Below, one piece after another: positions 14,393 to 22,738 of a DNA stretch of 34,568 bases. This DNA is from Phycisphaerae bacterium (GTDB lineage Bacteria > Planctomycetota > Phycisphaerae > JAAYCJ01). Location: positions 1 through 34,568 of the forward strand of contig JAAYCJ010000248.1 in the NCBI GenBank assembly GCA_012729815.1, given 5' to 3'. Position 1 is the stretch's first letter; each line of letters begins with the position of its first letter. The position numbers were made by a program, and so were the translations under genes. Under the pieces are notes generated by a model, which ran no database searches, had not been told where the DNA came from, and saw only the letters and a program-made list of their open reading frames with translations.

Positions 14393-14538
14393 GGACGTCG
14401 CATCCGGTCCGGCATCGCCTTTTCACGGACTTCGTCAATCCCGCTGTTATCCCTTGAATGCCGGGGTTACAATTATCGACGGCCGCGATGCCGCTGAAAA
14501 GAATATTATCCGGCCCGCCGCGGCCGGGGAGAACCGTC

Positions 14539-15294
14539 ATGCAAATCCTGAAAATCGGCACGGTGCCCTATCTGAATGCCGTGCCGCTGACCGAAGGGTT
14601 GGCCGAGCGACGCGACGTCCAGTTGGTCGCCGAACCGCCAAGCCGCCTCGCCGGACTGCTCGAGCAGGGGCAACTCGACGTGGCCATGCTCCCAGCCGTC
14701 GATTACCTCCAAAAGACCGACTCCTGGCCCATGGCCTGCCCCTACGGCATCACCGCCGACGGCCCCGTGCAGACCGTTCGGATCTTCGCCCACCGGCCCC
14801 TTGAGCAAGTCCAGGAGGTGTTCCTCGACTCCGAATCACACTGCTCGGTCGCGCTGACCTCCGTGCTCTTTCGCCACTGGCTCCATCGCCCCGCGAGGCT
14901 CACCGTTCGCCGGTTCGATCCCGCCGGCGCCGACGTGGGCGATTGGCTGCTGATCGGCGACAAGGCCATGACCGGGATTGACCGCCCGTTCGTCTGCGAT
15001 CTGGGCCAGTTCTGGCGCGACCGGACGGGCCTGCCGTTCGTCTTCGCCCTCTGGGTCGCCCGCGATCGCGCGAGTGCCGAGCGCGCCGGCCCTATCCTCG
15101 CCGAGACCGCCGAAGCGAATGCCTCGCGGATCGATGAGCTGGCGTCGAAGCACGCCGCACGTCACGGCTTTGAAGTCGCCGCCGCGCATCGGTACCTGGG
15201 CCAGACCATCCGCTATCGTCTGGGCGAGCGGGAGCGGGCGGGGTTGGAGCTTTTCGGCCGGCTGCACGCATCGACGGGGGCGCAGGTTTTATGA
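14539..15294 (+). CDS. mqnA: Chorismate dehydratase (futalosine pathway)
   Basis: Protein of 251 aa. MqnA dehydrates chorismate to 3-[(1-carboxyvinyl)oxy]benzoate, the first committed step of menaquinone synthesis by the futalosine route. The fold is a periplasmic-binding-protein type II cleft in the cytoplasm. The N-terminus KIGTVPYLNAVPLTEGL is the classic family signature, followed by PPSRLAGLLEQGQLDVAMLPAVDYL, then SHCSVALTSVLFRHWL and WLLIGDKAM. The C-terminal part includes DLGQFWRDRTGLPFVFALWVARD. I chose the ATG at 14539 because the signature follows directly and GGGGAG lies upstream; an earlier ATG at 14458 adds 27 residues of unrelated sequence. It overlaps mqnC by four bases (ATGA), so the two are translationally coupled. 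Confidence 0.95.
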   Translation: MQILKIGTVPYLNAVPLTEGLAERRDVQLVAEPPSRLAGLLEQGQLDVAMLPAVDYLQKTDSWPMACPYGITADGPVQTVRIFAHRPLEQVQEVFLDSESHCSVALTSVLFRHWLHRPARLTVRRFDPAGADVGDWLLIGDKAMTGIDRPFVCDLGQFWRDRTGLPFVFALWVARDRASAERAGPILAETAEANASRIDELASKHAARHGFEVAAAHRYLGQTIRYRLGERERAGLELFGRLHASTGAQVL

Positions 15295-16382
15295 GCCGCC
15301 TGAGCGACGCCGAGGCCCTCGATCTGCTTGCCCACGCCGATCTTCACCACCTGGGCCGACTGGCCAGAGAGGCGACGCTGCGCCGCCATCGCGACAGCAT
15401 CCGCACCTACGTCGTCGATCGCAACGTCAACTACACCAACGTCTGCGTTTCGGGCTGTCTGTTCTGCAATTTCTGCCGCCCGCCCGGCCATCCGCAGGCC
15501 TACGTGCTGACGGCCGAGCAACTGCTGGCCAAGGTCGACGAGCTGGTCTCCCTCGGCGGCCGGCAGGTCCTGCTTCAGGGCGGCATGAACCCTGACCTGC
15601 CGATGGCCTGGTACACGCGGATGCTGCGCGACCTGAAGGCGGCCCATCCGCAACTCCACGTGCACGGCTTCAGCCCGCCGGAGATCGTCTTCCTCTCGCG
15701 GACGTTCGGCAAGACCATCAGCGAGATCATTGGCGAGCTGTGCGAGGCCGGGTTGGACACCATTCCCGGCGGGGGGGCGGAGATCCTTGGCGATCGCGTG
15801 CGCGCCCGGATCAGCCCCAACAAGTACAGCGCCGCACAGTGGCTCGAGGTCATGTGTCAGGCCCACCGACAGGGCGTCCGCACCACCGCCACCATGATGT
15901 TCGGCCACGTCGAGAGCGACCAGGAACGGATCGAGCACCTTCGCCGCCTCCGCGACCTGCAGGACGAGACCGGCGGCTTTACCGCCTTTATCCCCTGGAC
16001 CTTCCAGCCCGCCGGCACCAGGCTGGCCAAAGACCTTCAGCCGCGTCTGGCCGGCGTCCAGGACTACCTGCGCATGCTCGCGGTGGCCCGGCTCTACCTC
16101 GACAATTTCGAGAATCTCCAGGCCTCGTGGGTCACGCAAGGGCCCGCGGTCGGGCAGGTCGCCCTGGAATTCGGGGCCAACGATCTTGGCTCGTTGATGC
16201 TCGAAGAGAACGTGGTGGCCTCAGCCGGCGTCAGCTATCGGCTTACCGAGGCCCAACTGCGGCAACTCATTCGGCAGGCCGGCTACATTCCCGCCCGACG
16301 CGACTGCTTCTACCGGCTCGTGGAAGAGCCCGCTGCGACACCGGACGTCGCGAGATCTTCCTCGCCCGAAATCCCAGGCTGA
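15291..16382 (+). CDS. mqnC: Cyclic dehypoxanthinyl futalosine synthase (radical SAM)
   Basis: Protein of 363 aa. MqnC is a radical SAM enzyme that cyclises dehypoxanthinyl futalosine to the cyclic product in menaquinone synthesis. The cluster-binding motif CX3CX2C is visible as Cys52, Cys56 and Cys59 (NVCVSGCLFC). Further MqnC hallmarks are DTIPGGGAEIL, RARISPNKYSAAQWLEVM, TTATMMFGHVES and the block TAFIPWTFQPAGTRL, which separates MqnC from its relative MqnE. Near the C-terminus GANDLGSLMLEENVVASAG is also typical. It directly follows and overlaps mqnA. A convergent histidine kinase gene ends 22 bases downstream. MqnE, MqnB and MqnD are not in this window. Confidence 0.95.
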   Translation: MSRLSDAEALDLLAHADLHHLGRLAREATLRRHRDSIRTYVVDRNVNYTNVCVSGCLFCNFCRPPGHPQAYVLTAEQLLAKVDELVSLGGRQVLLQGGMNPDLPMAWYTRMLRDLKAAHPQLHVHGFSPPEIVFLSRTFGKTISEIIGELCEAGLDTIPGGGAEILGDRVRARISPNKYSAAQWLEVMCQAHRQGVRTTATMMFGHVESDQERIEHLRRLRDLQDETGGFTAFIPWTFQPAGTRLAKDLQPRLAGVQDYLRMLAVARLYLDNFENLQASWVTQGPAVGQVALEFGANDLGSLMLEENVVASAGVSYRLTEAQLRQLIRQAGYIPARRDCFYRLVEEPAATPDVARSSSPEIPG

Positions 16383-21727: not shown

Positions 21728-21770
21728 CCCAACGCCTCCTGACTTCCGTCGAATCAGACTGCATGGCAAG

Positions 21771-21807
21771 CGGGTACGGCATGGTTCGCCCGACCACGCC
21801 GTACCCG
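21771..21807. repeat. Long inverted repeat (hairpin) between two minus-strand genes
   Basis: CGGGTACGGC (21771-21780) and GCCGTACCCG (21798-21807) are perfectly complementary. One A/C mismatch inside, TGGT/ACCA extend the stem to 14 pairs around a seven-base loop. It has no T-tract on either strand, so it is not a classic terminator. Confidence 0.7.
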
Positions 21808-21847
21808 ATCGTCGACAACAATCGGAGTAATTCCACTTCGGGCAGGG

Positions 21848-21882
21848 CGGGCAATCCTCGCCGAAGGCGAGGTTCACCCGCC
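21848..21882. repeat. Second inverted repeat between the secreted-protein and PAP2 genes
   Basis: CCTCGCC (21857-21863) and GGCGAGG (21867-21873) form a 7-bp stem with a GAA loop, enclosed by GCGGG (21848-21852) and CCCGC (21878-21882). It lies 14 bases after the stop of the secreted Asp/Tyr-rich protein on the minus strand and could be a rho-dependent or processing hairpin. Confidence 0.6.
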
Positions 21883-21895
21883 ACGCTTTGGCAAC

Positions 21896-22282
21896 CTACC
21901 AACCGTAGTAGTACCCGCCGTTGTCGTAGTCCGAGTCCCGGTCGTACCACCCGTCATCGTAATCGTACTCATAGTCGTAGTCGTACCGCTCCTCGTCATA
22001 CCAATTGTCGTCGTCATAGTAGTCGTAGCCGTCCCAGTCCCAATCGTACCATTCGTCCTCGTAGTCGTACTCGCCCCACTCGTAGTCATCGTCGTAATCG
22101 TAGTCGCCCCAGTCGTTCTCGTAGTCGATCCCGTCGTCCCCGTCGAACCAGTCGCTCGGATCGTACCATTCCTCCTCATGCACGCCCTCGCCCGGTTCGT
22201 ATTCCAGATCCTGCGCCATCGCCCACGGCGTTGCCAGCAGGAATCCCGCCGTCATCAGCGCCGTCGTCCATCGCATCAACAT
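21896..22282 (-). CDS. Secreted Asp/Tyr/Glu/Trp-rich low-complexity protein
   Basis: A 128-aa protein beginning with a standard signal peptide (MLMRWTTALMTAGFLLATPWAMAQ, cleavage expected after residue 24 or close by). The 104-residue mature part is extreme: by my count 32 Asp, 23 Tyr, 14 Glu and 10 Trp, together 76 percent, with only two Arg, no Lys and no Cys. Dipeptides DY and YD alternate along most of it, and the end is rich in Gly and Tyr (GGYYYGW). I know no domain like this. It should be strongly acidic and disordered outside the cytoplasm, possibly binding Ca or other cations. The ATG at 22282 follows an AAGGGGG ribosome site. It lies downstream of a low-complexity lipoprotein gene on the same strand. 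A low-complexity artefact is unlikely given the signal peptide and ribosome site. Confidence 0.8.
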   Translation of the reverse strand: MLMRWTTALMTAGFLLATPWAMAQDLEYEPGEGVHEEEWYDPSDWFDGDDGIDYENDWGDYDYDDDYEWGEYDYEDEWYDWDWDGYDYYDDDNWYDEERYDYDYEYDYDDGWYDRDSDYDNGGYYYGW

Positions 22283-22390
22283 CGTCAACCCCCTTTGGCG
22301 TCGTTCACGCCACAGAAGTACCGTTGGCGCCGTCGGTCCGCTCCGACGGCGTTTTGTCCGGCGGCTCGCGAGGCCCAACCTGCCTGACCG

Positions 22391-22738
22391 CTACTGCCCT
22401 TGCTCCGGCAGGTCCTGCGGCGGCTGAACCGGGGTTTCGTCGTCCTGCGGCTGGACCTGACGCTCCAGGCGGTCCAGGCGGTCCTGTTGCTGGTCCTGTG
22501 GCGGCTGAACCGGGGTTTCGTCGTCTTGCGGCTGGACCTGACGCTCCTGACGCTCCAGGCGGTCCTGCGGCGGCTGAACCTGGTACGTCTGACGCTGCTT
22601 GGCGTCGCCGTTGGTGACATCGCCGTTCCCATTGGTCGGCGTCTCGCTTCGCTCGCAGCCGGCGACGACCATCACCAGGCCCACCAGCGCGGCGACCGTC
22701 CATGTCAACCGGCGAAGACCATTCTTTCTGGCTTTCAT
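22391..22738 (-). CDS. Lipoprotein with tandem Gln/Pro/Asp-rich repeat
   Basis: A 115-aa protein with a clear lipoprotein signal: basic MKARKNGLRR, a hydrophobic helix, and the lipobox VAGC with Cys28. The ATG at 22738 has GGGGAGG upstream; the frame is open to 22798 but without such a site. The mature part is hydrophilic and low in complexity, with a linker rich in Asn, Gly and Thr and then a repeat: ERQVQPQDDETPVQPPQD occurs at residues 65-82 and again, identical, at 92-109. A partial third copy precedes them (about 52-64). The repeat is rich in Gln, Asp, Arg and Pro and is probably extended. No family is recognised. It lies 108 bp upstream of the Asp/Tyr-rich secreted protein gene on the same strand. 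Confidence 0.78.
   Translation of the reverse strand: MKARKNGLRRLTWTVAALVGLVMVVAGCERSETPTNGNGDVTNGDAKQRQTYQVQPPQDRLERQERQVQPQDDETPVQPPQDQQQDRLDRLERQVQPQDDETPVQPPQDLPEQGQ
22411..22547. repeat. In-frame 81-bp tandem duplication inside the lipoprotein gene
   Basis: Bases 22411-22466 recur at 22492-22547 with an 81-bp offset (27 codons) and only two mismatches that I can see (22418 and 22445, C versus T in the second copy). The high identity points to a recent slippage or duplication. Confidence 0.85.

Follow-up and report, generated by a model that had tools for sequence, protein, structure and literature searches.

An exported acidic-aromatic protein family encoded beside, or fused to, tandem OB-fold proteins in planctomycetes and Desulfobacterota

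Introduction

The small acidic protein DSS1/SEM1, which works with BRCA2 and RPA, has been suggested to act as a DNA mimic (PMC6954417), while allostery is favoured over DNA mimicry in a review of the subject (PMC8881015). Acidic-hydrophobic peptides are described to fill the basic groove of the RPA70N OB-fold as ssDNA mimics (PMC10479964), and the bacterial SSB is an OB-fold protein whose regulation depends on a disordered tail that is acidic at its tip (PMC8881015). Another group of secreted acidic proteins comprises the Asp-rich biomineral and RTX-type calcium-binding proteins; according to PMC9496343, Asp-rich disordered proteins are involved in CaCO3 biomineralisation.

The protein described here, referred to as DY for its Asp and Tyr content, resembles DSS1/SEM1 in being small, extremely acidic and predicted to be disordered, and its partner has tandem OB-folds. 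Unlike DSS1/SEM1, it is exported and bacterial, its sequence could not be related to that of any PDB chain, and its linkage to the partner is conserved by operon and fusion. The proposed DY units would share their acidic-aromatic character with the p53 transactivation domain and the acidic peptides bound by RPA70N; however, that system belongs to eukaryotic nuclear repair and works with single peptides, whereas DY is a secreted chain of repeated units. The SSBs of Thermus and Deinococcus, which have tandem OB-folds, were among the best fold matches of the partner, but SSB is cytosolic and carries its tail in cis, while DY is usually a separate exported protein. The Asp-rich biomineral and RTX families are secreted, Asp-rich and likely cation binding like DY, yet they are devoid of its Tyr/Trp content and of its OB partner, and no RTX nonapeptide (GGxGxDx) was seen in the DY sequence by inspection.

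Results

The window is the whole 34,568-nucleotide stretch of the Phycisphaerae contig JAAYCJ010000248.1. The DY gene (128 codons and a stop) occupies positions 21896..22282 on the minus strand, no strand having been given in the initial annotation, and was assigned, by its translation and homologues, as an orphan member of the DY family. Its translation, read from 22282 to 21896, starts with MLMRWTTALMTAGFLLATPWAMAQ and continues as DLEYEPGEG...YYYGW up to the stop codon. The mature chain of 104 residues contains 32 Asp, 23 Tyr, 14 Glu, 11 Gly, 10 Trp and two Arg, with neither Lys nor Cys; the initial annotation had listed the same numbers for all of these but Gly, and they were reproduced exactly. 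The pI of the protein is 4.05 and its net charge is -44 over about 104 residues. A Sec-type signal peptide was recognised by inspection in residues 1-24 (22211..22282, minus strand), ending in AMAQ, and the Shine-Dalgarno-like sequence AAAGGGGG (22289..22296, minus strand) stands 6 nt before the ATG, which agrees with the earlier description of a secreted protein with a normal signal peptide and ribosome site. Signal peptide ends of the AxAQ type also occurred in DY homologues (14 compared). The GC3 value of 0.84 was compared with 0.82-0.85 for the neighbouring genes, and GAC:GAT and TAC:TAT were used in ratios of 25:7 and 20:3. Neither the start context nor the codon use sets it apart from normal genes of the host genome. 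Nothing was found in promoter and terminator scans.

Since the tandem-repeat scores of the gene at the DNA level were weak, with no clean tandem repeat, a microsatellite artefact could be ruled out. A core of 21 residues was identical in the window, in a Desulfobacteraceae MAG and in Laterigemmans, which are distantly related, while 7-10 of the 21 codons differed synonymously. This homology excludes a chance origin of the ORF, and the identical core with synonymously changed codons indicates selection on the protein. For the congeneric genomes G269 and G381 a dN/dS of about 0.11 was obtained, for DY and partner alike. Judged by these sequence comparisons, the DY ORF of the window is a real, conserved gene.

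Three parts could be distinguished in the mature chain. The conserved N-terminal motif EYEPGEGVHEEEWYDPSDWFDGDDGIDYE (residues 27-55; 22118..22204, minus strand) was defined by alignment A1 and by conservation at the codon level. It is followed by a variable middle region rich in Asp, Tyr, Trp and Glu, with W-Y-D units and predicted disorder (residues 56-110; 21953..22117, minus strand), and by the aromatic C-terminal segment GWYDRDSDYDNGGYYYGW (21899..21952, minus strand), to which the homologue ends YYTTDWYDEDSDFDAWWSGL, YFTDTWFDEEDEFDEWYE and ...YDYGWNW are comparable. The end of the window protein, DNGGYYYGW, is most similar to the end ...YDYGWNW seen in genome G789; in most partnered members the chain closes with aromatic and acidic residues, for example as YYTADDWWD, YYTNDDWWDWD or YFTDTWFDEEDEFDEWYE. 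The DY alternation emphasised in the initial annotation is only one part of the pattern, which also includes the N-terminal motif, W-(F/W/Y)-(D/N/E) units and the C-terminal aromatic motif. W-[FWY]-[DNEYH] units exceeded the expectation from composition-preserving shuffles in most members; the combined P value of 2e-12 overstates the significance, because the members were treated as independent. In the AlphaFold model of a protein of genome G005, in which DY is fused to its partner, the pLDDT of the DY region was below 50 except for the N-terminal motif, which was modelled at about 70 as two short strands and a helix turn. Thus the DY chain is predicted to be disordered apart from its N-terminal motif.

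A search of 41 genomes (the host and its relatives) gave a match to the whole protein in one other genome, G005, at two loci, and scanning of genome contigs added locus L004 of a MAG assigned to the Desulfobacteraceae and locus L005 of Candidatus Laterigemmans baculatus. The motif YEPGxGxHEEEWYDPSDWFD...(I/V)DYE is common to the window, G005, L004 and L005 and is the basis of alignment A1. With the A1 profile, real matches were obtained in 3 of 392 genomes of the phylum of the window, besides one weak match which was rejected, and in 2 of 291 genomes of the class of the Desulfobacterota MAG; in the second of these, G620, two DY genes stand in tandem and a partner gene is also present. The motif is rare and scattered over planctomycetes and Desulfobacterota. 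The 409 kb of sequence that were retrieved contain 16 strongly DY-rich ORFs, every one of which belongs to the family. Homologues in related as well as unrelated genomes retained the DY composition, so a lack of such homologues, which would have refuted the initial annotation, can be dismissed, and its unusual polymer-like chain is supported. Aromatic content differs between members, and some versions diverge: the partnered DY proteins of G184 and G392b are far less acidic-aromatic, and those of G392b and G850 are weaker, Gly/Tyr-rich forms. Motif matches in G074 and G479 were rejected, being only 15-19 residues long and lying within large ORFs (923 and 1359 aa). No DY relatives were found in plasmid and viral collections, no Pfam or NCBIfam family matched the chain, and phmmer against all PDB chains, which covers homology to DSS1, gave no match at E<=10. 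An exported system combining OB-fold, EF-hand and acidic-aromatic chain was not found described in the open-licence literature. The DY proteins thus seem to be an undescribed family of exported acidic-aromatic chains.

A gene pair had been mentioned in the initial annotation. The pair with the neighbouring Gln/Asp-rich lipoprotein is not conserved; the lipoprotein was rejected as a DY partner after a single weak match elsewhere (E 0.009, in G322) in the seven other genomes searched. The conserved partner is an exported protein with predicted tandem OB-folds, encoded outside the window. At L004 the neighbour of DY is a gene for a secreted protein in which an EF-hand-like loop is combined with two LGP/OB domains; in G005 the same OB domains follow the DY motif within a single fused protein. 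Fusions of this kind were present in G005 (two), G297 and G759. When the OB domain alone was searched for in six genomes, it adjoined DY genes in G322, G620, G424 and on contig C242 of the host genome. In the latter, a paralogous DY gene (95 aa, ending in ...YYTEDWYNEDEGWFNDWW) lies about 80 bp upstream of a Q-rich EF-hand/OB-OB gene. A DY-type ORF was adjacent or fused in 18 of 18 testable loci reached through the OB domain alone, the number of independent loci being smaller than this count, because seven come from closely related genomes of one genus (about 13 genera overall). These loci had readable flanks and were collected by the six-genome, phylum-wide and family-wide OB-domain searches regardless of DY; one G620 partner at a contig start was left out of the count. 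The same linkage was seen at 6 loci found via the DY motif. In G364 the DY gene looks frameshifted in the assembly, with the ending YFTDRWWDW kept. No DY-type ORF accompanied the OB gene at about 15 loci where the OB domain belonged to a related subfamily (PRC-barrel fusions, the 'VHLGP' type and others). No shared third gene was seen beside the DY/OB pairs when the neighbours were read by eye. The linkage by operon and by fusion argues that the DY and OB proteins act together. The DY copy of the window has no adjacent OB gene, and this orphan may work in trans with the OB protein of C242.

Several details of these loci may be mentioned. At L105 (7100-7720, minus strand) a DY-type gene beside an intact OB partner looks frameshifted in the assembly, either through a sequencing error or as a pseudogene. 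At L139 (contig C249 of G789) DY-type genes stand on both sides of the OB gene, each ending in GWNW. In the Desulfobacteraceae MAG, the product of a third gene after the DY/OB pair (L020, 5285-5875, minus strand) is a secreted protein containing DYDYNYRENTGGSRDxRYMP repeats, which are also found in the N-terminal part of the OB partner of this MAG.

In the AlphaFold model of the partner from the host genome, two barrels with the element order of an OB-fold were predicted, for the most part with pLDDT values of 80-95, and the AF2 models and Foldseek gave the partner the OB topology (five strands; beta1-3, helix, beta4-5). Its best PDB matches in Foldseek were nearly all tandem-OB nucleic-acid binders (E 1e-6 to 1e-4), among them Teb1, HIN-200, the Thermus and Deinococcus SSBs and RPA70; the TM-scores of the two-domain model were low (0.25-0.3) because the orientation of the domains is uncertain. 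The fused G005 protein led to the same fold, its single OB domains matching mitochondrial SSB with TM 0.62-0.63. By Pfam profiles the OB part had weak OB matches (best tRNA_anti_2, E=6e-4), with no convincing Pfam or NCBIfam family and no PDB chain below E=0.06, and its sequence did not place the partner in a known ssDNA-binding family (SSB/RPA). The predicted fold suggests, but does not prove, a ligand of polyanion type.

Most of the aligned partners carry an EF-hand-like DxDxDGxxDxxE loop (for example DWDQDGTFDAYE and DYDRDGFYDAVE), in which D16, D20 and G21 are invariant; the pattern was present in 9 of the 13 listed partners, the G184 version ending in H. It is called a loop and not a full EF-hand, since Pfam EF-hand_5 was matched by one partner only, at E=0.14. 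The loop lends indirect support to the earlier calcium reading of DY. The pI is about 4 for DY and mostly 8.5-11 for the partners; however, 3 of the 13 have a pI of 5.4-5.9, against a simple charge picture. The idea that DY-linked OB domains are simply more basic was not supported by bulk net charge, the mean being +2 for linked and +1 for unlinked domains and thus not clearly different; basic positions specific to the DY-linked subfamily were found at columns 10, 20 and 63. It was also considered whether the DY C-terminus is generally received by a PDZ domain; this was rejected, since among the partners read only those of G322 and G424 carry one.

Discussion

DY may act on the tandem OB protein as an exported ligand, multivalent and acidic-aromatic and possibly tuned by Ca2+, a reading to which we give about even chances. 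For a disordered chain of this kind and a partner of tandem OB barrels it is the most economical one. The repeated units (EEWYDPSDWFD, WYD, WWD, WFDEEDEFDEWYE) would occupy the ligand grooves of a partner made up of exported tandem OB-folds, usually with the EF-hand-like Ca2+ loop and sometimes with a PDZ domain, in the manner of DSS1 on BRCA2/RPA or of p53 and other acidic peptides on RPA70N. Occupied grooves would mask the barrels from another polyanion, either nucleic acid or polysaccharide; alternatively, the chain could crosslink the barrels into a Ca2+-tuned extracellular complex, or hand over a ligand. Physical binding is what we infer from the conserved pairing and the predicted partner fold, and it would take place in the groove, in a Ca2+-dependent manner and in the extracellular space or the periplasm. 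The EF-hand-like loop, the pI contrast between DY and most partners and the basic positions specific to DY-linked OB domains also speak for this explanation. Against it count the partners of low pI, the low TM-scores of the two-domain model, the missing OB neighbour of the window copy, the less acidic-aromatic DY proteins of G184 and G392b, and the fact that OB-folds also bind sugars, oxyanions and proteins. A further-reaching version, which we consider rather unlikely, is that in at least two phyla DY as a polyanion or ssDNA mimic controls the binding of extracellular nucleic acid or another polyanion by a secreted, Ca2+-tuned tandem OB protein, and that the module is a separately evolved envelope counterpart of DSS1-BRCA2/RPA.

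The initial annotation, which claimed no function, had named cation binding, bridging of surface polymers, condensates and crosslinking as possibilities. DY might instead be a matrix or biomineral polymer whose Asp/Glu chain chelates cations such as Ca2+ on the cell surface without binding to any OB groove, the EF-hand-like loop of the partner belonging to the same Ca2+-dependent matrix. The net charge of -44 over about 104 residues, the presence of the loop in most partners and the Asp-rich biomineral proteins cited above are in line with this, but ordered W-[FWY]-D units above the shuffled expectation, the conserved motif and the strict OB pairing are left unexplained, and we regard it as unlikely. 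In a further explanation the pair is a two-component coacervate or adhesive, and polyanionic DY would form an extracellular matrix with an R/Q/Y-rich low-complexity region of the partner by phase separation or gelling. It would fit the opposite charges of the two proteins in most pairs, the FUS-like Q/G/Y/R stretches of the G000, G423 and G620 partners, and a Tyr/Arg repeat protein encoded by the third gene after the G423 pair. However, the low-complexity regions of the partners vary in sequence and length, unlike their conserved OB and EF parts, and three partners are net acidic; this explanation is decidedly doubtful. Both cation binding and coacervation may be complements as well as rivals of the OB-ligand mechanism.

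A chain of 104 residues with 23 Tyr and 10 Trp could also take part in redox reactions, be crosslinked oxidatively through dityrosine or bind metals at the surface; since the members differ in aromatic content and no conserved peroxidase, oxidase or redox gene was read by eye beside the pairs, we hold this to be very improbable. Finally, a long ORF on the opposite strand (21763-22617, plus strand) would allow the DY ORF to be spurious or the antisense shadow of a Val-rich gene. The signal peptide, the ribosome site, the gene-like GC3, the conservation of the minus frame across phyla and the dN/dS of about 0.11 in homologues reduce the chance of this practically to nil, and the Val-rich plus-strand ORF is the shadow frame.

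We regard the DY/OB system as new in its architecture and have moderate confidence in the OB-ligand mechanism. An extreme low-complexity protein of the kind normally dismissed as noise belongs to a conserved module of two parts, encoded by two genes or fused. The other part has a predictable fold, and the module is absent from Pfam, NCBIfam and PDB, so its function can be tested by a binding experiment. If the mechanism is true, a principle of eukaryotic DNA repair, acidic-aromatic mimicry towards tandem OB-folds, would have an exported bacterial case.

Some observations concern related OB proteins and other genes of the window. At L042 and L117 (contig C37 of G000, and G318) exported-looking proteins carry, behind PRC-barrel-like segments, OB domains that belong to a related subfamily, with no DY neighbours, and a single-OB relative of the 'VHLGP' type is widespread in Desulfobacteria. 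In the window, the lipoprotein gene upstream of DY (22391-22738, minus strand) contains an 81-bp tandem repeat, 93% matching, which encodes repeats rich in Gln, Pro, Asp and Arg. At 14458-16382 (plus strand) a menaquinone-biosynthesis gene of the VitK2_biosynth/MqnA type adjoins a radical-SAM gene of the CofH/MqnC type.
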